Assembly (NCBI GenBank): GCA_029553475.1
Contig: JAKPKV010000094.1
Location: forward strand, 1-54,857
Direction of reading: 5' to 3'
DNA from: Armatimonadota bacterium
GTDB taxonomy: Bacteria; Armatimonadota; Hebobacteria; CAIYQO01
DNA length: 54,857 nucleotides
Of the stretch, positions 1,124 through 22,015 are shown piece by piece. Every line of letters starts with the position of its first letter. Position 1 is the first letter of the stretch. Made by a program: the position numbers and the translations under genes. Under the pieces are notes generated by a model. The model saw nothing but the letters and a program-made list of their open reading frames with translations. It did no database searches and was not told the origin of the DNA.

Positions 1124-2089
1124 GTGGGACTGCAGCCCGATTCCTTTGACATTAACGACTTGTTGCGGCAAGCACGTGCCTTTGCCGCCCAGGGGCAGGC
1201 AGCCAGCACTCGCAAAGCGTATGCGGCGGACTGGGGGCATTTCGAGAACTGGTGTCATGCCGGGAACTGGCCTGCGTTGCCGGCGGCCTATGAAGTCGTC
1301 GCGCTGTATCTCACAGCGCTGACGCGTGAGGGGAAGAAACTCAATACCCTTACCCGGCGTTTAGCGGCCATCGCGTATACCCACCGTCAGGCTGCGCTGC
1401 CCTCTCCCACCAATACCCCGGTCGTCGAGGCGGTCCTCACCGGTATCCGTCGCACCTATGGATCACGCCCCCACGGCGTGGCAGCCCTCCTCACCGACGA
1501 TATCCGTGCGATGGTGCGCACGTTGCCGGATTCGCTGCTCGGTATACGTGACCGCGCCGTGATTCTCTTGGGATATGCCGTGGCATTTCGGCGGAGCGAG
1601 TTGGTCCAACTGGACGTGACCGATTTGGCACCGCGCGTGGAAGGCTTGGCCGTGACGCTCCGGCGCAGTAAAACCGACCAGGAAGGCCACGGGCGGTTGG
1701 TCGGCATCCCGTTTGGCACCTACCCTGACACCTGTCCGGTACAGGCGGTGCTGTTCTGGTTGGAGGCAGCACAGATTACTGCAGGGGCGGTCTTCCGTGG
1801 GATGAACCGGCATGGGCCGTGCATTTCCACCCGGCTCTCCGGACGGGCGGTCGCCACCATCATCAAGCGGGCGGCGGCCGCAGCGGGGCTCGATAGTACG
1901 CAGTATACCCCCCACTCACTACGCGCCGGCTATTGCACCACTGCGGCGCGGGCCGGGGTGGAAGAGCGCGTGCTCATGCAGCAGACCGGGCACACCTGTG
2001 TGGCCACCCTGCGCCGGTATGTGCGCGCCGGGTCGTTGTTTTTAGAAAACTCGGCGGTGGCGTTGGGGTTATACCGTTTGGTACTGTAA
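1124..2089 (+). CDS. Tyrosine recombinase/integrase
   Basis: A 321-residue phage-integrase-family protein. The N-terminal part (about 10-105) is a SAM-like core-binding domain (STRKAYAADWGHFENWC). The catalytic domain shows the whole active site: Arg in AFRRSEL, Lys in RRSKTDQEG, His and Arg in TPHSLRAGY, a second His in QQTGHT, and the nucleophilic Tyr in LRRYVRAG. It cuts and rejoins DNA through a 3'-phosphotyrosine. The start is GTG; length is normal. Its 3' end overlaps the convergent radical SAM gene by 21 bases. It may mobilise the island to its right, but no att core was recognised, so its target is unknown. Confidence 0.9.
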   Translation: MGLQPDSFDINDLLRQARAFAAQGQAASTRKAYAADWGHFENWCHAGNWPALPAAYEVVALYLTALTREGKKLNTLTRRLAAIAYTHRQAALPSPTNTPVVEAVLTGIRRTYGSRPHGVAALLTDDIRAMVRTLPDSLLGIRDRAVILLGYAVAFRRSELVQLDVTDLAPRVEGLAVTLRRSKTDQEGHGRLVGIPFGTYPDTCPVQAVLFWLEAAQITAGAVFRGMNRHGPCISTRLSGRAVATIIKRAAAAAGLDSTQYTPHSLRAGYCTTAARAGVEERVLMQQTGHTCVATLRRYVRAGSLFLENSAVALGLYRLVL

Positions 2090-3106
2090 ACAATCCGGGT
2101 CACGATGCACCAGGTTGAACTGTCCGTATTGAAACACGCGTTGTGCTGGGCAACCGCCGTGGCAGGTGTCCTCATACGCACAGTCGCGGCACTCACTTGG
2201 TAGCTTTCGCGCATACTCCCTCGCCTCCCTGAAGAATGCCGACCGCGTCCACACGGTTTCCAACCCGACGGCGAATACGTTCGCAAACGCGTCATCCGGG
2301 AAGACGAATCCTTTGTAGGCATCGCACGGGTAGGCGGTGCCGTCAGGGGCGATCAGCATCCGGTCGATCCCGGCACGGCAAGCTGGCACATCAACTCTCT
2401 GCAGTATACTGTAGGGACTGCCAAGGCGAATGCTGACCTGGTTGTCCGACGCCAAGCTCGTCACCATTGCACGCAGAGCCAGGTGTTGCTGACGGTTGAG
2501 TGCCAGGGAATGGCCGATACCCCGGCCATGCGGAACAAATCGCAGCAGGGAAACCCTCCGCACCCTCAGCGTCCGCATCATGTCGATCAAGGCAGGGAGC
2601 GACTCGAAATTAATTTGTGTTGGGACACAGTGGAGGGTGACATCAATGCCGACGAATTGGCATGCCTGGATAGCCGCAATCGTCGCTTCGAAGCTCCCTG
2701 GTACCTCCGTGAACGCATCATGGATGGCGGCCTCTCCAGCCTGCAGGCTGAACACCAGTGATCGCGTTCGGTGCCGAAGTTCCTCCGCGAAAGCGAAATC
2801 GAGTGGTGAAATACTTCTGTCACGAGTTACACGTGTCCCAGTGGTGTATATCGTCGTGGCGAGGTTCTCGGCGCGGATCACGTCAAGAATCGCTAACAAC
2901 TCAGGGTGCTCCAGCGGTTCTCCCCCCGATATTTCGACCTGCTTGCCATCCAGGAGCACGAACTCACGCATCACCTCCGCCACCTGCGAGGGCGACACGA
3001 AGAGTGTTCGGTCGCGTGAGGACTCCGATGAGCAGTGCACGCATCGCATGGGACACCGATCGAGGATCTCAAGTTTGAGATCGGTCAGCTGATTTGTCAC
3101 AGCCAT
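2069..3106 (-). CDS. Radical SAM/SPASM enzyme
   Basis: 345 residues. The N-terminal CX3CX2C (Cys18, Cys22, Cys25, in DRCPMRCVHC) binds the [4Fe-4S] cluster that cleaves S-adenosylmethionine, and ISGGEP follows near residue 60. The C-terminal third has SPASM-type cysteines (YPCDAYKG, ECRDCAYEDTCHGGC, DPDCLQY) for auxiliary clusters. SPASM enzymes often modify peptides or proteins, but the substrate cannot be read from the sequence. It is the last gene of the leftward block, 218 bases after the kinase gene, with its own weak promoter candidate. In phages with hypermodified thymidine, radical SAM enzymes take part in base tailoring; a similar role here is inference. Confidence 0.85.
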   Translation of the reverse strand: MAVTNQLTDLKLEILDRCPMRCVHCSSESSRDRTLFVSPSQVAEVMREFVLLDGKQVEISGGEPLEHPELLAILDVIRAENLATTIYTTGTRVTRDRSISPLDFAFAEELRHRTRSLVFSLQAGEAAIHDAFTEVPGSFEATIAAIQACQFVGIDVTLHCVPTQINFESLPALIDMMRTLRVRRVSLLRFVPHGRGIGHSLALNRQQHLALRAMVTSLASDNQVSIRLGSPYSILQRVDVPACRAGIDRMLIAPDGTAYPCDAYKGFVFPDDAFANVFAVGLETVWTRSAFFREAREYARKLPSECRDCAYEDTCHGGCPAQRVFQYGQFNLVHRDPDCLQYQTV

Positions 3107-3166
3107 ATCGCCAACCTCCCCGGATAGAGGCCACCGGCATGCCGCCGATATGATCTGAAAAACCGT

Positions 3167-3194
3167 ATTGTACCGAAATGATGAGTGCGCTCAT
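3167..3194 (-). promoter_or_regulatory. Weak promoter candidate and palindrome ahead of the radical SAM gene
   Basis: On the minus strand a TACAAT -10 sits at 3167-3172, with no convincing -35. The palindrome-like ATGAGTGCGCTCAT at 3181-3194 covers the -35 area and could bind a repressor. The rest of 3107-3324 holds no other feature I can support. Confidence 0.3.
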
Positions 3195-3324
3195 TCGTCA
3201 TACTGCTCACACTCTTCGCTCACAGTGGCACCACCGTGTGCGCCTTACCGAAGACACCCAGACCATGGCATACAACCCTACCGGATTGTTTTTGTCCCCT
3301 TCGCTGGATTCTGTCGCTTCACCC

Positions 3325-5037
3325 TCACCCTTCAGCCACGCGGACATTAAGGTTCCACTTCGGTGGAAACCAATACACAACCGGATCAAGGCAAGGACGA
3401 AAATGCTGTTTTATCCGTTTGCGATCGCCAACACCCTCCGCTTCTGGGTGTGCGACGCGCGCATACTTATCCACCTCACAAAACAGGTTTTGGCAATCAA
3501 TCAACTGCAGGGGACGTCCCCAAAGCGAGCGAAACTCCAAGCCGAGTCGCGCAAATTCCACATCCTGCCGTTCGGCCATCATGAGGATGATGTCTGCCTC
3601 GCTCATCCCACCTGTAGTGCGGAAGCACTTGCGGATTCCACTTCGGGCACCTGGTCCGGGAACCGTGAACTCCATTTCACTGAAGTCGGTCACCTCACTG
3701 TAGTTGAGGTCTGTGACGTACTGGTAAGCGAGAAAATCGCCGATCATCGGGTACGAACGGAGGAGGTCAAAGGCCTGGCGCATCCGCGGCACCTCCGCCA
3801 GGCGCTGGGGCACCTCGTCTGCGAGCATCGTCTCAATCAGCCGCAAGTAGTTGCGGTGCTTGACCGGGTCGCCGAACGTATGCCCTCCTGTTGGCATCAT
3901 GTAGGCGGCGGAAAAGATCGACCGGCCAGCGCTCATCGCTCCCTCTAATATCGTGGCATATCGCTCGAACGAATAACCGGCATAGGATATTTCGCCGACA
4001 GCCTGTTTCAGCAACTCCCAGGTTTCGACACGGTTGAAGACCTTGAATACGAGTACCCGAAAGAACACCTCGTCTGGCGACTGATCGCCTTGATAGATCA
4101 CTTCGCGAATAAGGTATTGGCTCACGCGGTCCGCAGCCCGGTAGGCGTTGGTGAATTTGAATGTTGCCAGGATCGGATCGGTCGTCCATGGCTGGGGTGC
4201 TCCCTCACAACGTCGAAAAAATATCTGCTGACGTTCTGCAGCGAAGCGCCAATATGTGTCGAACACTTCGGTCGGAACTGCCGGTGCGATACTGAAGAAG
4301 GTGAGTTGTTTTTCGTGGGCGGACAGCACGGCTGCCTGCTGACTTCTATGGCCGTCATGGGTATGAGTGCGCCTATTGCGATGCCCGGAATGACCGGCAC
4401 CTCGAGAAGGTGTCTCGCCATCGCGGAGAAATGGCTCCAGCTTAGCGATAATCTCGCCAATCTTTTCTTCTAACGTCCCGCAGTTATGGATCGTGTAAAC
4501 CTGAGAGCGTTTGGCTTCGCATTCGGCGACCGCATCATACAGGCGGCGCAGTGCGAGAAAGCGCTCGGGCACCTCGTTCGGTCGCCATGGTTTATCGGCG
4601 CGTATCAGAAAGACCGCCGCTGGATGAATATCAGCCCAGCACACGTCTTCGAGCTCGACCAGAGCGTCTAGAATGTCAGTGGGGATACCCGCGTATGCCC
4701 CATACACCCACGTCGACCACCAAAACCGATCCAGTACGACATGATGACCAGCTGCCAGTGCCGGGCGGATGCACCGCGCGATGGCGTCGATATGCGCTGC
4801 GACATGAAGGGTTTGCAAGCTGGCAGGATCAATTGAAGCGATCTGATACTGGTCATGATAGTGATGGTGCAGCGTGTAGATGTGCTCGCCCAGCGTCCCG
4901 GGCTCACGACCAGGGAAGGAAAACACCCCACATGGAATTCCACGATGACGCAGACGTGTGACCACACCAGACACGAGCGTGGTCTTCCCGACTCCGTCAG
5001 GCCCTTCGAAAACAATCAGTTTTCCGTTCTCCGACAT
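3325..5037 (-). CDS. Thymidylate-kinase-like domain fused to a 5-hmdU DNA kinase-type helical domain
   Basis: 570 residues in two parts. Residues 1 to about 205 are a P-loop nucleotide kinase of the dTMP-kinase type, with Walker A GPDGVGKTT and the DR motif in VVLDRFWWS. After a His/Arg-rich linker, residues about 230-570 match the helical domain found with 5-hydroxymethyl-dU DNA kinases and alpha-glutamyl/putrescinyl-thymine pyrophosphorylases (FFRRCEGAPQPWT, FKFTNAYRAADRVSQY, then YSFERY and TDLNYS). In phages that family phosphorylates 5-hydroxymethyluracil in DNA as a step to hypermodified thymine. Assignment is from memory of the family. The gene begins 31 bases after the TS-like gene and is very likely in the same operon. 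A nucleotide or nucleoside substrate is likely; the exact one is unknown. Confidence 0.75.
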   Translation of the reverse strand: MSENGKLIVFEGPDGVGKTTLVSGVVTRLRHRGIPCGVFSFPGREPGTLGEHIYTLHHHYHDQYQIASIDPASLQTLHVAAHIDAIARCIRPALAAGHHVVLDRFWWSTWVYGAYAGIPTDILDALVELEDVCWADIHPAAVFLIRADKPWRPNEVPERFLALRRLYDAVAECEAKRSQVYTIHNCGTLEEKIGEIIAKLEPFLRDGETPSRGAGHSGHRNRRTHTHDGHRSQQAAVLSAHEKQLTFFSIAPAVPTEVFDTYWRFAAERQQIFFRRCEGAPQPWTTDPILATFKFTNAYRAADRVSQYLIREVIYQGDQSPDEVFFRVLVFKVFNRVETWELLKQAVGEISYAGYSFERYATILEGAMSAGRSIFSAAYMMPTGGHTFGDPVKHRNYLRLIETMLADEVPQRLAEVPRMRQAFDLLRSYPMIGDFLAYQYVTDLNYSEVTDFSEMEFTVPGPGARSGIRKCFRTTGGMSEADIILMMAERQDVEFARLGLEFRSLWGRPLQLIDCQNLFCEVDKYARVAHPEAEGVGDRKRIKQHFRPCLDPVVYWFPPKWNLNVRVAEG

Positions 5038-5068
5038 GACGATACCCTTTCACCAGTTATCCGCATGG

Positions 5069-5846
5069 TTATTCAGTGCCACGCTCCACAAGCGTTGACA
5101 GCTGGGCCGATAACTGGCTAAGATCGCCTTTCCCAATAGCGCCGAGTTGAGCCACGCTGGCGACGCAGTTCATCCGCACTAAGTCCATATCCATCGCCTG
5201 CGCCATGAACTTCCCAAGGCGGCAGAGGCCGACATAGTTGCCATACGCGCGCTGGAAGAAGTGCTGGATTGCGTAAAAGCCCGTGACAACCAGCCCGGCC
5301 CCCGGCACGACCTGGAACGCCACCTGCTGCAGGCAAGGGAATCCCCGCTGGCGTTGGGCTGTGATGTCCTTTGCGGGATCGAGAATCGATGCCTGTAGTG
5401 CACTATGCCGATGGATGCCCTGCGCGTAAATATCGAGGATGTGCTCAAGCTGGTTCAGCCGGTTCTCACCGTAGGCGATCAGACGTTTGAAGTACAGGCC
5501 GTACCGATTCGCTGGACACACCTTCTTCATATACGGGAGCACCTGCGCATATCGTCGGTATAGCGTTTCACGGCTCTTGTCAGGATTCCATAAAGATAGT
5601 GGGAAGATGGTGTTGGCCACGGTGCGATGCAGCGGCTTCCCGCACAGCGTAAGTGCCTGATCCAAGGCGTGCTGGATATGGAGATCCTCATACTCGGTAA
5701 GCGTACGTCCCGACAAACCGCACACCGAAACCGCGAGCGGCGATATGCAGGTGACGCCAGGTGCATGCACAGCCAGGAGCGCGCGCCCACGCCCGCGACA
5801 GGTTCGTATCCTCAATGTAATGGGGGCTACTCGTCGTCATCATCAT
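5069..5846 (-). CDS. Thymidylate-synthase-like protein, N-terminus frameshifted
   Basis: The main frame (5069 to about 5785) has thymidylate synthase/dCMP-hydroxymethylase family features: RYGLYFKRLIAYG, NQLEHI, a candidate nucleophilic Cys in GFPCLQQVAF, and FFQRAYGNYVGL. The family transfers a one-carbon unit to C5 of a pyrimidine nucleotide. The natural start is probably the ATG at 5846, which overlaps the ImmA stop as ATGA. That frame reads MMMTTSSPHYIEDTNLSRAW and joins the main frame only if one base is added at the GCGCGC stretch near 5780. This is a recent mutation or a sequence error. A later in-frame start may still give a shortened product. With the next kinase it suggests synthesis of a modified deoxyuridine nucleotide. 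Confidence 0.7.
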
Positions 5847-6691
5847 CCTCCCAATGCCGGTCGGCCGACAAATCCACGTTTCGCAATTCGCACCACCGCA
5901 GACCAGGAGCCGTCACGTGCCATCAGGCGTTCAGAGCCGGCGCGCACCCCACGCAGAACCAGCCGATGCTCATCCTCCCGGTCAAGCATGAGACATGTGC
6001 CTTCATATGCCACCGTCGGCGGCAGGAGAATGCGGTCTCCCGTCTGCACATCAATCGCGCGACCAGCCCACAGGTGGTCAACGACAAAGAGATCATCATC
6101 ACAATCGTCACGCAGGAGCGCTGACCGAATCTGCTTCGGCTTGTGGCGCAGCAATACCTTGGCTACGTGCTCCGGGAGCACCCCCAACGCATAACACATA
6201 TGACTGATGATCGTGGTATATCCCACCCCAAACCACCCCGCCACGATGAAGGCCTGTTCCGGCCTGCACGCTTTCGGCTCCCACCCGCGGGAACGAAAGG
6301 CATGCGTGAGAGCGGTTGGCGGCATGAGCACCATCCCCGCGAAGCAATCGGCCTGAAATTCTTCAGGGTCGAAGGGGGCATTCGGCATACGGTCAGGCAG
6401 CAGTTCATCCACACAATGGCCATGTCCAAAGACATGGTGCCCGAGTTCGTGCGCGCACGTGTATGCTTGCCGTCCTGCCGGCCGTAATGACGACAGCAGG
6501 ATATGCGGCGCCTCGGTACGGATGTAGACACCCTCGAGTTTGGGAAGTTCGACCATTCGCACCTCGACACCAAGGTACTCGGCCACGTCATAGATGCAGA
6601 CCGCCTGTGCGCCACCCACGCGAGCGCGCACACGGACGTGCAAGGCTTTCTGTGTGCTGATCCGCGCCAGTTCAGCCCTACGCATATTCAT
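5843..6691 (-). CDS. ImmA/IrrE-family metallopeptidase
   Basis: 282 residues. The zinc motif HELGHH stands near residue 82 in YTCAHELGHHVFGHG, and the downstream EEFQADCFAGMVLMPP supplies the third-ligand region, as in COG2856/ImmA. Proteins of this family cleave a partner repressor and so switch on mobile elements or stress genes. The start overlaps the stop of the XRE regulator gene by one base (TGATG), which points to a functional pair. A C-terminal half of about 150 residues has no recognised domain. It lies between the regulator and the TS-like gene. Confidence 0.88.
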   Translation of the reverse strand: MNMRRAELARISTQKALHVRVRARVGGAQAVCIYDVAEYLGVEVRMVELPKLEGVYIRTEAPHILLSSLRPAGRQAYTCAHELGHHVFGHGHCVDELLPDRMPNAPFDPEEFQADCFAGMVLMPPTALTHAFRSRGWEPKACRPEQAFIVAGWFGVGYTTIISHMCYALGVLPEHVAKVLLRHKPKQIRSALLRDDCDDDLFVVDHLWAGRAIDVQTGDRILLPPTVAYEGTCLMLDREDEHRLVLRGVRAGSERLMARDGSWSAVVRIAKRGFVGRPALGG

Positions 6692-7038
6692 CAGCGTTCC
6701 CCATCCGTTTTGAGCGTCGCCAGCAGCGATAACAGGCGCTCTAGATCGTCTGGCGAGAGTTTTGCCAATTCACGCGCGGCCAGTTCAATACGAGGGTCCT
6801 GTGGCGCATCGCCCGCTGCTGCCTCGCCAGCGAGCCATGAGACGCTGACGCCGTAAATCCTCGCCAGTTCAGTCAACTCCTCGGCACTCACCTTGCGTCG
6901 TCCGGCTTCCATCTCGGAGACCGATGGCCGGTGCAGATGCAGCAATCGAGCGACCTGTCCTTGCGAAAGCCCTGCCTGCTCGCGAGCCACACGAAGGCGT
7001 TCGGCAATCTGTGCGTGGCTTTGATTCGAAGAACCCAT
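6691..7038 (-). CDS. XRE-family transcriptional regulator
   Basis: 115 residues with an N-terminal helix-turn-helix (about 10-65: RLRVAREQAGLSQGQVARLL, then RPSVSEMEAGRRKVSAEEL). The C-terminal tail with LSPDDLERLLSLLATL probably dimerises. It starts three bases after the acyl-carrier-like gene and overlaps the ImmA gene. The likely operator is the palindrome at 7335-7351 just downstream of the operon's internal promoter, so it probably represses its own transcription until ImmA cleaves it. That circuit is inferred from gene order. Confidence 0.9.
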   Translation of the reverse strand: MGSSNQSHAQIAERLRVAREQAGLSQGQVARLLHLHRPSVSEMEAGRRKVSAEELTELARIYGVSVSWLAGEAAAGDAPQDPRIELAARELAKLSPDDLERLLSLLATLKTDGER

Positions 7039-7041
7039 CGG

Positions 7042-7323
7042 CTACATCCCCTCCGTTTCTACCACGCCACATAGCCGACCGACAATTTCGTGCACAGATA
7101 ACCGTCGTCCGCTATCAGTGAACAAGTGGCCGAGTTGCTCAGCGTTGATGCCGCACATATCGGTGATGCGCACCGTCACTTCCATAGCATTCAGGCTATC
7201 GAACTCGTACAAGTCGTCGAGCGGCACGGTTTCGTCGTCAATGTCCTGGTCAGGACGGCCACTCAAGGTTTGGATCTCTTGGATGCCTTCGATCAAGGCA
7301 TCGCGAATCTGTGCTGCAGTCAT
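7042..7323 (-). CDS. Acyl-carrier-protein-like protein
   Basis: 93 residues with the four-helix carrier pattern and a DSL motif (YEFDSLNAMEVTVRI, about residues 40-54) whose Ser could carry 4'-phosphopantetheine. The family holds acyl or aminoacyl groups as thioesters. No ketosynthase, adenylation enzyme or phosphopantetheinyl transferase is nearby, so its cargo is unknown. It is the first gene after the strong internal promoter at 7354-7382 and is followed at once by the regulator gene. The match rests on a short motif and general pattern. Confidence 0.65.
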   Translation of the reverse strand: MTAAQIRDALIEGIQEIQTLSGRPDQDIDDETVPLDDLYEFDSLNAMEVTVRITDMCGINAEQLGHLFTDSGRRLSVHEIVGRLCGVVETEGM

Positions 7324-7334
7324 ATCAACCCCTA

Positions 7335-7382
7335 TCTTACGCTCGGTAAGAATATATTACCACGGCATCTGTATCGTGTCAA
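7335..7382 (-). promoter_or_regulatory. Sigma70-type promoter with palindromic operator inside the conjugation/nucleotide operon
   Basis: On the minus strand TTGACA (7377-7382) and TAATAT (7354-7359) are separated by exactly 17 bases. The perfect palindrome TCTTAC-GCTCG-GTAAGA occupies 7335-7351, right at the expected transcription start. The promoter serves the acyl-carrier, XRE, ImmA, TS-like and kinase genes. The XRE protein encoded two genes downstream is the natural candidate to bind the palindrome. Confidence 0.75.
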
Positions 7383-7417
7383 TATGGCAAAGCGCCTCCT
7401 TCTTCCTTTCCATGTCT

Positions 7418-8776
7418 TTATCCCGCACCCGAGGAAGGTGCATGCCGACTACTACCGTTCAGCTTCTGCCATACCACCGGATCCGGACAACCGCCACAAT
7501 TCGCGCGTGGCACCCGATCAAAGATCATCGGCCGCAAGTTCGCAGATTTGAATGACAGGATTGTTGTGTTGGCATTCGGCGGGTCGCCAGGAATTACGAG
7601 CTTCACTAAATCGGCGAGTGCCAGCACACCTGCCGCTAACGACAAAAACGGCAACGCCCCTGTCAATGGCGCCGCTCCCGCGCTCTCCTGCTCTTTCAGC
7701 ACACCCTGGGCACAACGCGGTGCCGCCGCCGGTTGAGGGAATCGGCATACCAGGCAGTCGTCCACCAATGGGATGTGCCGTCCGGCATACGCATCCCATT
7801 GCGAGCCTGTCGAGCCGTGGATCATAACCGGCGGGTAGTTTGCCTGCACGGCTGCACGTACCCCATGCTCATTTGCCACCGGAATCACGACGTCAAAGTT
7901 CTGCAGACTCAATTCAGGGCCGATGACATCGTTGAACCACTTGCCGATATAGCGGGACGGGACGCTGGCAGCACACAGGTAGTTATGGACCACCTCGGAC
8001 TTGGGCACGCCGATGTGCTCGATGAAAAAGAGCGGCACACGGTTCAGATTACTATAATCCACTTGATCAGGATTGATGATGCACAGGTCGGAGAAGTTGA
8101 GATTCAGGAGCGGAAGCAGGTAGGCTATCGATGCGCCGACTGCGCCTGCGCCAATCAGCAGAACACGGCCGATGTCACTTTTTTGCAGATCCGGTCCATC
8201 TATGACCGCGCCTCCGTGGTGCAAATTCCACAGTGACAGTATCGCTGTCTCACACACGTCATCGTGGCGTAATGCATGTCGTAACATATAACTGGCGCCC
8301 ATACATGCTGCCAGCGCTGGTCCAAGCGGATTTATCGAGTCATCGTCTTTGAGCTTCATGTCATCTGAGTGCCTAAGCTCGGACAGCCATCCACGGCCGC
8401 GAATACAGGAGATTGGCAGTGTTGGATGTCTGCCGAGATGAATGCGGACAGATGCGGCTACCGGCTCACATTGATCCTGGAAGATGCCATACGGATCAGC
8501 TCGTTGCGCTAGCGCGAGAGCGTTATCGACAAGCTGGTTTGTTCCCCAGCAATACAACGCTGTATGCAACGGCACATCGGGCGCTACTAGAGTTATCCGC
8601 TGACACCAGCGCGCGCTCATATTGACCAATAGGAGGAATGCAAGCTGGCCAGCAAAAGTCTGAGCCTCAACCTCATCAATACTGATCCCCAGGGACACTG
8701 CATGGAGACCGGTCGGATCCAGCCATTCGGCCGTACGGGCATCACGCTTTGTGTAGAACTCCTCTGCACTAATCAT
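7418..8776 (-). CDS. E1-like ThiF-family adenylating enzyme
   Basis: 452 residues. About 190 residues of N-terminal extension with no recognised domain precede a Rossmann ThiF/MoeB/E1 domain. That domain has the ATP loop LIGAGAVGAS (about 208) and the DYSNLNR motif (about 240-246). CLVC at 341-344 and CGGC at 427-430 form a probable structural zinc site. E1 enzymes adenylate the C-terminal glycine of a ubiquitin-like protein and pass it on as a thioester. The gene overlaps the JAB gene by four bases (ATGA) and shares an operon with a Ubl ending in GGGV. Which Cys takes the Ubl is not clear. Sulfur-carrier activation is the alternative role. Confidence 0.85.
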   Translation of the reverse strand: MISAEEFYTKRDARTAEWLDPTGLHAVSLGISIDEVEAQTFAGQLAFLLLVNMSARWCQRITLVAPDVPLHTALYCWGTNQLVDNALALAQRADPYGIFQDQCEPVAASVRIHLGRHPTLPISCIRGRGWLSELRHSDDMKLKDDDSINPLGPALAACMGASYMLRHALRHDDVCETAILSLWNLHHGGAVIDGPDLQKSDIGRVLLIGAGAVGASIAYLLPLLNLNFSDLCIINPDQVDYSNLNRVPLFFIEHIGVPKSEVVHNYLCAASVPSRYIGKWFNDVIGPELSLQNFDVVIPVANEHGVRAAVQANYPPVMIHGSTGSQWDAYAGRHIPLVDDCLVCRFPQPAAAPRCAQGVLKEQESAGAAPLTGALPFLSLAAGVLALADLVKLVIPGDPPNANTTILSFKSANLRPMIFDRVPRANCGGCPDPVVWQKLNGSSRHAPSSGAG

Positions 8777-9312
8777 CGTTCATCTCCTCGCATGTCGATC
8801 CAGTCGGGAATTATCGAGACTCGTGTGGCAATTGCACGCCCATCCAACCTGCGGAATTCACCTTGGGTATAGCAGTGAATGCCGCATTGTGTGAGTGGTA
8901 ATATGCCGTGAAGACCATAATGCGGCACAACGACCGACCAATGGCCATCCGCACGGACAATGGCCTCTTCGTCATCGATCTCTGAATGTGAGACTCCACG
9001 CCCAGGATGGCAATGGACTTGTGCCACGATGTGTAGACGGCACGCCATCAATGCCGCCATGACATCGGCATGATCGTCAGCATCGGTGCGGTAGAATCCA
9101 GGCCCTGTGACGCATTGCGGCGCAATCACCGTGACGCCAACCCGTACGGTCGGCAGGATGAATCCGGCAATATACAGCACATTCTCACGCAGGACACCAC
9201 CACTGCAGAGCGGGATACGTCGCTCCACGGTGTTAACAACCGATGATGTGAGCACCAGTCGGGGGCCATCAACGTCCCTATCCCAGTGCAGTGGCTTTGA
9301 ACGTGATCGCAT
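8773..9312 (-). CDS. JAB/JAMM (Mov34/MPN) metallopeptidase
   Basis: 179 residues with the JAMM zinc signature HxHx7SxxD: His100, His102, Ser110 and Asp113 in VHCHPGRGVSHSEIDDE. Family members remove ubiquitin-like proteins from targets or trim their C-terminus to expose GG; here that could be the final Val of the Ubl. The usual catalytic Glu two residues before GG of the first strand is not obvious, since the matching place reads CSGGVLRE, so activity should be tested. It overlaps the E2-like gene by one base and the E1 gene by four, which shows tight translational coupling. Confidence 0.88.
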   Translation of the reverse strand: MRSRSKPLHWDRDVDGPRLVLTSSVVNTVERRIPLCSGGVLRENVLYIAGFILPTVRVGVTVIAPQCVTGPGFYRTDADDHADVMAALMACRLHIVAQVHCHPGRGVSHSEIDDEEAIVRADGHWSVVVPHYGLHGILPLTQCGIHCYTQGEFRRLDGRAIATRVSIIPDWIDMRGDER

Positions 9313-9774
9313 CAGGCATTTTTCCTTCCTTTATATTCAGAATCCTCGAGAAGGTCGGCAATCAGCGCTAGCACCAACCCCAGTTCACGCCGCATCGGGT
9401 CGCCTTGTTTCCAGTCACCGAGCTGCCAGTCACCATGTGGCCCACCAAGATCACGATACGCACGCCGGCTCCAGCGCGCACAGATGAAGTTGCCGGAGTG
9501 GAAGTAGTTTTTCCCTCCTGTTGGGAAGCAGCGGCTCGTATTCCGTTCTCCAGACTCGGGATGCACCGCGTCTATCAGGGGAGGTAACTCGGGATAATGG
9601 TCGAAACGGAATTCAAAGACGTAGATTTCCTGGTCCGGGGCTTGAGATGGCTGCCCGAAGACACAAGGCATCACGATCCCACTGGAGATCCCAGCCGCGC
9701 CGCCGTGCTGATGGCGCGGCCCGCAGGAGCTCCTGGTCGACCGTAATGCGGCTAACCTCCGGATGCACCGCCAT
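9312..9774 (-). CDS. Candidate E2-like conjugating protein, interrupted by a frameshift
   Basis: The C-terminal frame (9674-9312) reads IYVFEFRFDHYPELPP and later FHSGNFICARWSRRAY, like prokaryotic E2-fold proteins in which the Cys after the HxGxxIC-type stretch is catalytic. The natural start appears to be the ATG at 9774, one base after the Ubl stop codon. From there another frame reads MAVHPEVSRITVDQELLRAA up to about residue 40, and the two join if one base changes between about 9635 and 9674. So an intact gene would encode about 153 residues. Either the gene is newly broken or one base is misread. The E2 assignment comes from pattern and position between Ubl and JAB genes. Confidence 0.55.
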
Positions 9775-9775
9775 G

Positions 9776-10042
9776 TTAGACCCCCCCACCCTGCTGGGGG
9801 ATGAGCATCAGGACGACGCCATCCTCCAGATGGTACGACACCAGGGGCCGGTCCGGCTGCAGGATCTCACGGGTCACCGCGTTGCGCAATTCGTAGTCAA
9901 CTGCCGCGAGGCCGAAGTGGTTCAGGACGGCCGTGATCACGTCAGCGACCTTGGCTGTCTTCTCGAAGTCGTTCGCCCTATAGATGAGCAAGAAAGGCTT
10001 CGTGAAGCATTTGCAGGATTGGGGCTTGTCATGGAGTACCAC
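9776..10042 (-). CDS. Ubiquitin-like (beta-grasp) protein ending in GGGV
   Basis: 88 residues from a GTG start, or about 71 from an in-frame TTG. The core LLIYRANDFEKTAKVADVI through YHLEDGVVLMLIP follows the beta-grasp pattern, and the chain ends QQGGGV. A di-glycine end, hidden by one residue, is what a JAMM peptidase would trim and an E1 activate. It heads the operon, and its stop is one base from the E2-like start. No good ribosome site precedes the GTG, so the start is uncertain. It could act as a protein tag or as a sulfur carrier. Confidence 0.7.
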   Translation of the reverse strand: MVLHDKPQSCKCFTKPFLLIYRANDFEKTAKVADVITAVLNHFGLAAVDYELRNAVTREILQPDRPLVSYHLEDGVVLMLIPQQGGGV

Positions 10043-10343
10043 TGTACTGCCATCGATGACGCCTTCATCGATGAAACGCGTGCAAAAATTCGAGCTGTCA
10101 AAAGGAAAAGAGAGCTGAAATCAGCCTGGCAGACGCAGTTGGCCAGTTTAATTACTATCCCTTCAACGAACACGGTAGATTATCTATCACAGGTATTTGG
10201 CATCTCATTATCGCCCTCGCCCACTAGGTTGGCGGTAAGCGGTGTTGGGCCGATGTCTCTCAGACTTCGGGGATCGGCTGCGAGCTCTTCGCGTAATAGT
10301 CTGGCTGCCGACAAGGCCGTAGAAATTGCAGTAGAAATAGCAA
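10043..10343. other. Intergenic region between the Ubl operon and a divergent ImmA pseudogene
   Basis: It should hold the promoter of the Ubl operon, but no clear -35/-10 pair is visible. A minus-strand TTGACA near 10095-10100 has no -10 at the right distance. On the + strand one frame stays open from the ATG at 10031 to 10423 (AFIDETRAKIRAVKRKREL, then DKAVEIAVEIAIAWENR). Its end could be the natural N-terminus of the ImmA gene beginning at 10344, shifted by one frame. Confidence 0.35.
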
Positions 10344-11085
10344 TTGCTTGGGAAAACAGAGAGCCTACTACTTCGCGCTGGAATCACCCAAGCACCAGTG
10401 GATTTGGGTATCATTGCGGATGAGCTTTACCTTTACGTACAAGAAGTTCCCCTCGATGGCATTGATGGATGCATTGTTCATAACGAGGACGTGGGCGTCA
10501 TTCTCATTAACAGCTTGGTTGAACATGAATACCGGAGACGCTTCACATTAGCGCATGAAATTGGGCATTTCATGCTGCCAGCACACATATGCTGATAGCG
10601 ATGAGAACATGGGGGATTACCGAACAATCGAAGAGAAGCAAGCCAACGTCTTCGCATCGATGTTGTTGATGCCACAGTCATTATTGCCGCAAAAGTTCGG
10701 ACACGTCCAGTCCTCCTTCGAACAGGCTGAAATGCTGAAGCAGGGATTCAAGGTGTCGTTGGCCGCTGCATTGAGACGGATGGTTCGTCTCTCTAACTGG
10801 GCGTGCGCTGTCGTCGTGACGAAAGACGGGCATCTCCAGTGGAGCGCCAGGTCAGATGAATTTGACGGATGGATCGCTGCACAGCCACATCCATTAAGCG
10901 GCGCTTCACGATTGCTGGAATCACCTGAAGGTAGCAGTCTTATCGACGAAGTTCCCGAAGACATGTGGCTCGACTCATCTTATCAGCGTGGAGCTTCTTC
11001 AGAGTGCGTGCTCCGAGAGCATAGCAGGCGTATGAGGAACGGTTATGTCTACACCCTTCTAACGCAACCTTGTGAGGATGCCTGA
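10344..11085 (+). pseudogene. Second ImmA/IrrE-family peptidase gene, frameshifted
   Basis: The first frame (10344-10595) reads RAGITQAPVDLGIIADEL, then RRRFTLAHEIGHFMLPAHIC with the zinc motif HEIGH, and stops. The second frame (about 10590-11085) goes on with DYRTIEEKQANVFASMLLMP, the usual continuation of the same fold. One base change near 10593 separates them. A stop codon just before the TTG at 10344 suggests that the N-terminus is damaged too. Base composition is lower in GC than the genes to the right. It lies divergent to the Ubl operon and may once have controlled it. Confidence 0.75.
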
Positions 11086-15194: not shown

Positions 15195-16531
15195 TTAGTC
15201 TCCCGCGAGCCACGATGCCTGCAACACCGTCGGCAACGCGTCGACATTCATCTCCAACTCCAGGTGATCCGGATAGACGATGACCGCCGAGAGCAGATAC
15301 GGCATCAGTTTGCTGCACCGCCGGATAGAGCCCCATATCCGATCGAGGTGTTGGAGGGCGCAGAGCACCGCGTAGCGCTGGGCAGGCGCCGTGGTGTCAT
15401 CCAACTGGGCGAGCAACTGATCGGGCTGCTGCATCAGCGCGCGGAGTTGCGTCAGCACTGCTGCCTCAACGGTCCGGGCCGGAATGGTTCGGACTGCACA
15501 CGTCTGATCCCCATGCCGCTGGGCGGTGGAGCAGACATAATACCGATAGGCACGGTGGTCTTTGCGACTGCTGGAGGGGCTCATCGCACAGCCACACCGG
15601 CCGCAGCGCAGCACCCCGCGCAGGAGCGCCACCTGCCGGTGCCCCACCGACTGGGAGCGGGCATCGGTCCGCGTGGCGTCTGGCAACAGCGCTTGTGCCG
15701 CCTCCCACACCGCGTCCTCGATAATGGCCGCATGCTGACCGGGATAGGTCTGGCCCCCCGTCACCACCACTCCTCGGTACAGCGCATTCGTGAGCACCCG
15801 CCGGACATACGCCTTACACCAGGGACGGGCGGGATGTGCTCTCCCTCGCCGTGAGGTAAACGCCTTCGTCTGGTAGCCCTGGGCGTTCACGGCGTGCATG
15901 ACGGCGGTCACCGAGCGCAGGCGGAGGAATGTTGAAAAAATCTCGCGCACCACCGCCGCTTCCGTGGGATTCACCACCAGGCGGTGGGTGCCGGGGTCAA
16001 TATCATAGCCATACGGCGGATACCCCCCACAAACAAGCCCTTTTTCCGCGAGGCGGTCATCTTATCGCGGGTGCGCTCGCTGATCATCTCCCGCTCGAAC
16101 TGGGCGAAACTCAAGAGGATATGGAGCGTCAACCGTCCCATAGGACTCGAGGGGTCGAAGTCCTGGGTGGTGGCAATAAAGCTCACATGGTGCCGCTCAA
16201 ACAGACTGATCAGGCGGGCAAAGTCCAGGAGGGAGCGGGAGATGCGATCCACCTTATAGACGAGCACGCAATCAATCGCGCCGCGGGTGATCTCCGCCAC
16301 CAGCCGCTGCAGCGCAGGCCGCTCGAGCGAACTGCCCGAAAAGCCCCCATCCTCATAGGTCTCTGACACGGCGTGCCAGCCGAGATGCCGGCGCTGGGCA
16401 ATGTAGGCGAGGGCGGCTTCGCGCTGGGCATCGAGCGAGGTAAAGGCCGCGTCCAAGCCCTCATCAGTCGATTTGCGGCAGTAGATCGCACAGCGCACGC
16501 TGGGTAGCGGCGCAGGATGGGCGTGTGTCAT
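15195..16531 (-). CDS. Large serine recombinase, frameshifted at a homopolymer
   Basis: The resolvase domain (AIYCRKSTDEGL with catalytic Ser, then YKVDRISRSLLDF, then QFEREMISERTRDKM) starts at the ATG 16531, which overlaps the DUF2924 stop as ATGA. At six Gs (16023-16028 as Cs on the + strand) the frame slips. One more G would give GGYPPYGYDIDPGTHRLVVN and join the second frame (15977-15195), with the recombinase domain, a zinc ribbon (LRCGRCGCAM and YYVCS) and the C-terminus. Restored length is about 445 residues. Such enzymes integrate or excise elements. As written it is inactive, unless the tract varies or the base count is wrong. Confidence 0.82.
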
Positions 16532-17015
16532 TGCGCCTCCTCCTGGTCCACGGTCGCCACCCGAAAGAACGCCGGCCCACTGCAGTGACTGCCGGTAATG
16601 GCGCGCGCCACGGCGGTCAACGAGGGATACAGCCATCCAGCGTAGACAAACCCCGTCGGGCTCACCTCGACCCGGTACATCTGTCCGTGCCAGCGGCGGA
16701 GGAGCTGCGTGCCCACCACCGGCAGGCGCGTGCGCTCCGCCGTAGGGCGACTCGCGGGATGGGGGCACTGCTGGGCGATGGTCGCCAGCGTCGCGCGGGT
16801 GGCAGCCGACAGGCCGCCAGAGACGAGTTCCTGCACGCGGTAGGCTAATCGGCGAATCAGATAGCGTTTGTTGTAGTGGGAACAGGCGTGCCTATGAGCA
16901 GCTGCCACCGCTCCGAAAGCTCAGCCATGGACAGGGTCGGCAGTTCGGCCAGTTGGTGGAGAAGCCGGGAGCGGGCGGTTGGCATGCCCGCATCCAGCAG
17001 CTTGGACGGATCCAT
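16528..17015 (-). CDS. DUF2924 protein, frameshifted
   Basis: The ATG at 17015 follows AAAGGAG and reads MDPSKLLDAGMPTARSRLLH and on to ELSERWQLLIGTPVP. The frame then changes near 16875, where one extra C would join it to HYNKRYLIRRLAYRVQEL. The C-terminal domain (GTQLLRRWHGQMYRV, GFVYAGWLYPSLTAVARAIT, SGPAFF) is the clear DUF2924 signature. Genes of this family regularly precede large serine recombinases, as here with a four-base overlap. Function is unknown; a part in recombination control is inferred from context. Confidence 0.8.
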
Positions 17016-21559: not shown

Positions 21560-22015
21560 GCAAAAGGGGGCCGCACGAGGCGTTGCGGGCGCACCACGCG
21601 ACTCGCACCTCGCGGGCGGGCTGGAGTGATGAGTTCCGGATCGGTTTGCTGGGCACCGTGTGCGGGAGCCTCACGCCGCGCGGGATGCAGGTGCGCCACC
21701 TGCTGGAATTGTCACGGGACTGGTATGGGGTAGCGGTCGCCGTGGTGCCGAAAAGCGGCGTCCTAGCAGCCCAGTGGATGGGCGGATTAAGCGGGGAGGC
21801 GTTTCTGCCGGTGCTCCGGGATTGGCACGCAGCCGAGAGGGATGTCCTGGTCTGGGATGGCTTGCTAGGCCATCGAGGGCTGCAAGCCCTCAAGACGCCG
21901 CTGCCGACCATCCTGCAACCAGCCGCCTCGCCGGAGTGAAATCCGACCGCGCGTCCGGATTGCCTACCAGTGCCCGTGGCACACCGGCATCAGGCCCACC
22001 CATTTCTTCACGTCG
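21560..22015 (+). mobile_element. IS630-family transposase C-terminal remnant
   Basis: The frame ending at 21939 has the IS630 DDE core: SDEFRIGLLGTV (first Asp), then ERDVLVWDGLLGHRG (second Asp) and LQPAASPE (the usual PPYSPELNP), after which TGA breaks it. The N-terminal HTH half is missing; IS5 sequence stands in its place, so the two remnants seem to be joined by insertion or recombination. It abuts the truncated gene at 22028. Confidence 0.65.

Follow-up and report, generated by a model that had tools for sequence, protein, structure and literature searches.

Do the ubiquitin-like conjugation genes and the nucleotide-modifying enzymes that stand side by side near one end of an Armatimonadota contig (JAKPKV010000094.1; the window referred to throughout is the whole stretch analysed, 54,857 nucleotides) constitute one machine? 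A preliminary description had joined ten genes into a single leftward block, in the order ubiquitin-like protein (Ubl), E2-like protein, JAMM peptidase, ThiF-type E1, acyl-carrier-like protein (ACP), XRE repressor, ImmA peptidase, thymidylate-synthase-like (TS-like) protein, kinase fusion and radical SAM enzyme, and had read both halves as a single system. All ten genes were found on the (−) strand where it had placed them, and the families that it had assigned proved mostly right. The region, nonetheless, is almost certainly composed of two neighbouring, independent and separately controlled modules beside a tyrosine integrase: Module A (approximately 7.4–11.1 kb) comprises the Ubl, E2, JAMM and E1 genes with a further, divergent ImmA gene, and Module B (2.1–7.3 kb) comprises ACP, XRE, ImmA, TS, a fusion of a dTMP kinase (TMPK) to a 5-hydroxymethyldeoxyuridine (5-hmdU) DNA kinase, and the radical SAM enzyme. 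Both look like inducible defence modules, and to the overall explanation, that is, two modules with the mechanisms proposed below for each, we assign a probability of roughly 0.62.

The separation is borne out by the distribution of the two halves, for which the preliminary description had itself named the check. When 84,980 species genomes were scanned with an alignment of the kinase, at least 550 relatives were returned, and 80 loci were kept; with the addition of plasmid and same-phylum loci, the window included, this gave 87 loci carrying the 5-hmdU kinase helical domain (HMUDK). Relatives of Ubl, E2, JAMM or E1 were found near none of the other 86 loci, a profile search for the Module A E1 was negative in all 50 whole genomes with Module B (the same profile does find E1 in genomes G000 and G119), and the six other Ubl operons all lacked Module B beside them. 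These negatives cover a finite sample and the relatives reachable by the profiles used; within it, the halves never occur together outside the window.

Moreover, what had been described as one joined block is interrupted: E1 and ACP are parted by 94 bp, in which there is a match to a promoter (TTGACA-17-TAATAT, 10 of 12 positions plus a TG extension; 7330–7382, (−) strand), overlapped by an operator of GTAAG and CTTAC half-sites at 7336–7360. Promoter-like matches as such are no commoner in the region than in shuffled sequences. The operator consists of CTTAC-N5-GTAAG together with a one-mismatch GTAAG-N5-CTTAC, no other site of either kind occurring in the window, where 0.22 and 0.15, respectively, would be expected, and the window scan found no copy ahead of the Ubl gene. 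An operator of this type stands close to the start of ACP in 47 of the 63 ACP-bearing loci, where shuffles give an expectation of 0, and a TTGA-type −35 box accompanies a half-site in 35 of the 63; elsewhere in 1.16 Mb there are six matches only. The natural reading of so conserved an operator in the gap is an XRE-controlled promoter serving Module B alone, and presumably it is the XRE repressor that binds the predicted GTAAG/CTTAC sites. Neither the ACP-containing operon nor its operator was found described in the literature searched, and the operator provides a sequence handle for finding further members of Module B.

A composite system, in which the Ubl pathway would tag a nucleotide-pathway protein, as first suggested, has in its favour the common strand, the tight spacing and the absence of any gene between E1 and ACP. 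Given that the combination is missing from all of the other Module B loci, whole genomes and Ubl operons counted above, and that the conserved promoter and operator separate its halves, it is already largely refuted, and we reject it as highly improbable; ACP, XRE and ImmA are part of the nucleotide module. The observation that the first four genes overlap or nearly touch stands, and can be made more precise: E2 and JAMM overlap by 1 base, and JAMM and E1 by 4 bases.

Module B is a recurrent unit in its own right. Of the 87 loci, 60 have the order ACP-XRE-ImmA-TS-(TMPK)-HMUDK without interruption, the TMPK being fused in 34 of these, separate in 2 and absent from 24. The loci are spread over about 16 phyla, and on a quickly computed tree of HMUDK domains the phylum label switches at least 29 times, a sign that the operon passes from one lineage to another; it is also carried by conjugative plasmids of Nostoc and Sinorhizobium. 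The position after HMUDK forms a variable slot, usually filled by a canonical TS (34), MazG (32) or a radical SAM enzyme (9), as clustering of the neighbours shows and as counted over 86 rows of the tree analysis, and its state switches at least 8 times on the HMUDK-domain tree. The canonical TS of the slot bears PCN, RSND and PYN motifs, and is present in 35 of the 54 loci with TMPK against 1 of the 33 without. A holo-ACP synthase (AcpS) is encoded near 20 related loci, every one of them with MazG, which argues for a genuine carrier protein; the AcpS of the present host is encoded elsewhere in its genome. With a fixed gene order, a fixed operator and a swappable third enzyme, Module B constitutes a precise and testable unit. 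The entire ACP-XRE-ImmA-TS-TMPK::HMUDK-radical SAM cassette is also present at 5583–9700 of a contig classed as viral (L113; IMGVR_UViG_3300018033_000004).

Sister loci that do not have ACP, XRE and ImmA frequently carry Nmad2 and TIR proteins (TIR in 16 of them, and Nmad2 in about 16, mostly without ACP), which looks like a second defence subtype using the same chemistry. In this arrangement, seen in L020 (NZ_AP023248.1, 9435–14508) and again in L037, L047, L052, L055, L066 and L067, TMPK/HMUDK or MazG is linked to Nmad2, TIR-domain proteins and sometimes a uracil-DNA glycosylase. The surroundings of the window genes gave no match to Nmad2. Matches of neighbours to dCTP deaminase were partly antisense frames and were not used.

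Within the window, the genes of Module B all lie on the (−) strand. The ACP (7042–7323) matches the PP-binding family (expect value 2.1e-5) and has the conserved phosphopantetheine serine (DSL); the XRE repressor (6691–7038) is CapH-like (PADLOC capH, 6.8e-17), and the ImmA/M78 peptidase (5843–6691) is CapP-like (PADLOC capP, 2.3e-14) with its HExxH motif intact. There follow a divergent protein of the TS superfamily (5069–5846; TIGR03283, 1.5e-9) and the kinase fusion (3325–5037; 570 residues), in which a dTMP-kinase-like P-loop domain (Thymidylate_kin, 5e-14) precedes the 5-hmdU DNA kinase helical domain (HMUDK_hel, PF18723, 1.8e-114). These family matches support the enzyme set of thymidine-hypermodification type, the carrier protein and the XRE/ImmA switch that the preliminary description had recognized. 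Across Module B the phosphopantetheine serine of ACP, the HExxH of ImmA and the FPC of TS are conserved, as are the P-loop and LDRFWWS of TMPK and the LIDCQNLFCE of HMUDK. In the variable slot lies a radical SAM/SPASM enzyme (2069–3106), full-length relatives of which, at 28–35% identity, occupy the same slot elsewhere. Viperin was considered as its identity and rejected: the PADLOC pVip matches (1e-10) are weaker than those to PqqE-like enzymes, and a SPASM domain is present.

The structural models are consistent with these assignments. The model of the HMUDK domain (mean predicted local distance difference test score, pLDDT, 93) superimposes on the 5-hmdU DNA kinase of phage SP10 with a TM-score of 0.80 and a deviation of 2.8 Å; the weak matches of the helical domain to DNA glycosylases in the PDB (best E 0.33, TM-score approximately 0.3) were not relied on. 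The family phrog_800 matches the whole fusion of P-loop and helical domains (residues 3–555), and is annotated in PHROGs as 'terminase small subunit'; it is probably a misnamed 5-hmdU kinase family. The structure prediction that had been proposed for the TS-like protein was run on an intact relative (from L028; pLDDT 91.5) and yielded a TS fold: the model retrieves TS folds and TS/hydroxymethylases, the top query-normalized TM-scores being with MilA, the CMP hydroxymethylase of a nucleoside antibiotic pathway. The family combines a modelled TS fold with the catalytic cysteine. Since the host relies on ThyX for housekeeping, and its genome yielded no canonical ThyA, the TS-like protein is read as an accessory enzyme.

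Module A very probably conjugates a Ubl, and the proposal of a bacterial operon of Ubl-E2-E1-JAMM type has held, as a Bil-like, ubiquitin-type conjugation operon. The Ubl (9776–10042, (−) strand) is a single-domain protein ending in GGGV, the true start of which is probably internal to the open reading frame, near 9990; the profile of its family matches ubiquitins, namely polyubiquitin (1.8e-6) and ubiquilin in the PDB, its orthologue in L111 matches Pfam ubiquitin (PF00240, 1.8e-4), and the GV end is shared by 5 of the 7 aligned sequences. In the E2-like protein (9312–9774, (−)), the N-terminal part of which lies in another frame, Cys65 and His80 of the 120-residue open reading frame are conserved; Cys and His are invariant in the alignment, which shows just the Cys and a later His-x-x-Trp. 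As a single sequence it gave no match in the PDB or Pfam, and its profile gave weak matches alone, to an E2 variant and BilB (E 0.3–0.9), whereas orthologues match PADLOC BilB at 1e-5 and 4e-4. The E2 identity follows from these matches of relatives, taken with the conserved Cys and the operon context; for Ubl and E2 alike it is the relatives that secure the identity, the window proteins by themselves being insufficient. The JAMM/JAB peptidase (8773–9312, (−); Prok-JAB; PADLOC BilC, 1.2e-11) retains an intact E-HxH-S-D motif, and these active-site residues are conserved among relatives. The ThiF-type E1 (7418–8776, (−); ThiF, 3e-14; PADLOC BilD, 4.5e-15) has a BilD-like N-terminal region, and its alignment preserves GxGxxG, N, R, CxxC and the presumed catalytic C355.

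Upstream of Ubl, at about 10031–11085 on the (+) strand, there is a broken copy of a divergent gene of the ImmA family, in which PF06114 (M78) is split over two frames (positions 3–55 and 63–122). It is 44% identical over 72 residues to the divergent ImmA of L111, and a divergent ImmA lies upstream of the Ubl operon in L107, L110 and L111, with an XRE gene as well in L107 and L110. Because the broken gene is the counterpart of these, we count it as a member of Module A and extend the unit to 11.1 kb. Searches of plasmids with E1 and, separately, with E2 returned the identical five records (Halomarina, Mesorhizobium huakuii, Haloferacaceae XH8, Natrinema zhouii and Mycolicibacterium chubuense), all of which hold the four-gene operon Ubl-E2-JAMM-E1; a sixth locus is in the same-phylum genome G119. 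Stand-alone Module A spans alphaproteobacteria, mycobacteria, haloarchaea and one genome of this phylum, where it is uncommon (2 of 291 genomes, the present one counted). A scan of viral contigs with the single E1 sequence gave no match.

By homology, the JAMM protease of Module A would trim the single-domain Ubl to its Gly end, the ThiF-type E1 would adenylate it, and the E2 would pass it to target proteins, from which JAMM might also remove it; the divergent ImmA peptidase probably controls expression. For Module B, the XRE repressor would occupy the operator over the −10 box until a DNA-damage signal (single-stranded DNA) activates ImmA, whereupon XRE would be cleaved and the operon turned on, as we infer from the CapH/CapP-like pair (PMC13373217). 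The TS-superfamily enzyme and the dTMP-kinase-like domain would then produce a 5-substituted deoxyuridine nucleotide and phosphorylate it, the HMUDK domain would phosphorylate the 5-hydroxymethyl group, in the nucleotide or in DNA, and a group bound to the carrier protein and/or the radical SAM enzyme may finish the modification; most likely, the altered nucleotide or base would block or mark invading DNA. Phage 5-hmdU DNA kinases phosphorylate hmdU within DNA ahead of further tailoring (PMC6449724, PMC6457204). It is probable that Module B works on thymine-type nucleotides or DNA; its particular substrates, its activation signal and an anti-phage role are put forward here by analogy.

A defensive role for Module B is the one we favour, by a modest degree, and it is probably a little-described anti-virus system. 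TS and 5-hydroxymethyluracil kinase domains are newly validated in anti-phage systems of Escherichia coli (PMC13092281; a figure legend there also names dNMP kinase and NMAD); together with the TIR proteins of the sister loci and the CapH/CapP-type control, this favours defence. The main rival is anti-restriction, in which a mobile element would hypermodify its own DNA under stress or on transfer, much as phages do. The chemistry of 5-hmdU kinase and TS-hydroxymethylase is indeed known from phages protecting their DNA (PMC6449724), and Module B is found on conjugative plasmids and the viral contig; it is, however, also common in chromosomal contigs across its many phyla, control of CapH/CapP type is typical for immune operons (PMC13373217), and the sister-locus TIR proteins and the validated anti-phage domains (PMC13092281) point the other way, such that we regard it as unlikely. 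Still less likely is a small-molecule nucleoside (an antibiotic-like natural product) or a signalling nucleotide, made while DNA is left unaltered. ACP, holo-ACP synthase and radical SAM enzymes are frequent in natural-product pathways, and the TS model has its top scores with MilA, but no recurring transporter, adenylation or glycosylation genes were found in the neighbourhood, and the HMUDK domain belongs among DNA-acting phage enzymes.

Several points weigh against our explanation of two working modules. The substrate of the TS-like protein could be dUMP or another nucleotide, and its product may be methyl or hydroxymethyl; the operon has no enzyme to load the group carried by ACP; and it is not certain, from the accessible part of PMC13092281, that the TS, dNMP kinase, 5-hmdU kinase and NMAD of E. 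coli form one operon like Module B. Furthermore, three genes have frame breaks that had gone unremarked in the preliminary description, such that this copy may be inactive: the N-terminal region of E2 lies in another frame just past the Ubl stop (break near 9640; z 2.3–3.9 against three relatives), the first approximately 23 residues of the TS-like protein are likewise displaced (break near 5773; z 13.8), and the divergent ImmA is split as described. Relatives hold intact copies of these genes. The breaks may represent decay, as the frames of long chromosomal genes (DnaK and ClpB among them) are uninterrupted on the same contig, and a serine recombinase at 15195–16768 ((−) strand) is apparently split in two overlapping frames, resembling the other broken genes of the island. 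That the island here is a decaying remnant, with neither module working, is accordingly a substantial possibility, to which we give somewhat less than even odds: the frames of E1, JAMM, the kinase fusion, the radical SAM enzyme, ACP, XRE and ImmA are open, and single-base assembly errors are possible in a draft of 194 contigs. It is doubtful that the module copies of this particular genome are fully working.

The suggestion of a mobile island is upheld by the setting. The tyrosine integrase (1124–2089, (+) strand), likely the mobility gene of the island, meets the radical SAM gene tail to tail with a 21-base overlap, and the GC content is 0.55–0.61 across the first 11 kb as compared with 0.64–0.73 past 22 kb of the window. 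Comparison of the integrase end with the tRNA-Gln side gave no att-like direct repeats of at least 13 bp. The contig is assigned to its host on the grounds of its DnaK, which shares 84% identity with that of a genome of the same family. ARAGORN called a 94-base tRNA-Ala with anticodon AGC at 21807–21900 on the (−) strand, the odd length and anticodon of which suggest a possibly false call.

Although the claimed fusion dissolves, both halves are informative, as comparison with known systems reveals. Module A shares with Bil (BilABCD), the bacterial ISG15-like anti-phage conjugation system, the order Ubl-E2-JAMM-E1, the matches of E1 and JAMM to BilD and BilC, and that of the relatives' E2 to BilB. 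It differs in that BilA has two tandem Ubl domains, whereas Module A has one (in the window and in six relatives, 86–103 residues), and in that the Cys-Glu-His-His (CEHH) motif of BilB, C-x5-E-x-H-x4-H (PMC11354881), is absent from its E2, which has instead the invariant Cys and the later His-x-x-Trp. Judged from sequence, Module A is Bil-like by gene order and homology but lacks these two features of Bil. Like the bacterial ubiquitination-like (Bub) operons, among which 219 of 544 have an adjacent CapW or CapH with CapP (PMC13373217), it has a putative regulator beside it, the divergent ImmA. It widens Bil-like conjugation to a single-Ubl form that is also present on haloarchaeal plasmids.

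Module B has in common with the DefensePredictor systems the joint presence of TS, dNMP-kinase and 5-hmdU-kinase domains; those systems have NMAD where Module B has ACP-XRE-ImmA, and the accessible part of that report (PMC13092281) makes no mention of an operator or of slot exchange. Its XRE/ImmA pair is homologous to the damage-responsive CapH–CapP pairs (7e-17 and 2e-14), with an operator over the promoter, and differs from others in constituting genes 2 and 3 within the operon that it presumably controls. With phage thymidine hypermodification it shares the TS-superfamily enzyme, the dNMP kinase and the 5-hmdU kinase helical domain fused to a P-loop domain (as in SP10), whereas it is bacterial and self-regulated, has a carrier protein and XRE/ImmA, and accommodates radical SAM, MazG or a second TS in its slot. 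Tentatively, and as a proposal that we hold improbable in its full detail, Module B could be an undescribed damage-inducible immune pathway of about sixteen bacterial phyla, in which a dedicated carrier protein would deliver a group to an HMUDK-activated 5-hydroxymethyl-dU nucleotide or DNA base, and the resulting hypermodified thymine, dependent on the carrier, would poison or mark invading DNA, with Module A as an independent single-Ubl conjugation system of bacteria and haloarchaea. The enzyme set of Module B is known chiefly from phages disguising their DNA; if the module is defensive, bacteria would be using the chemistry of thymine hypermodification for immunity, with the carrier protein as a new player.

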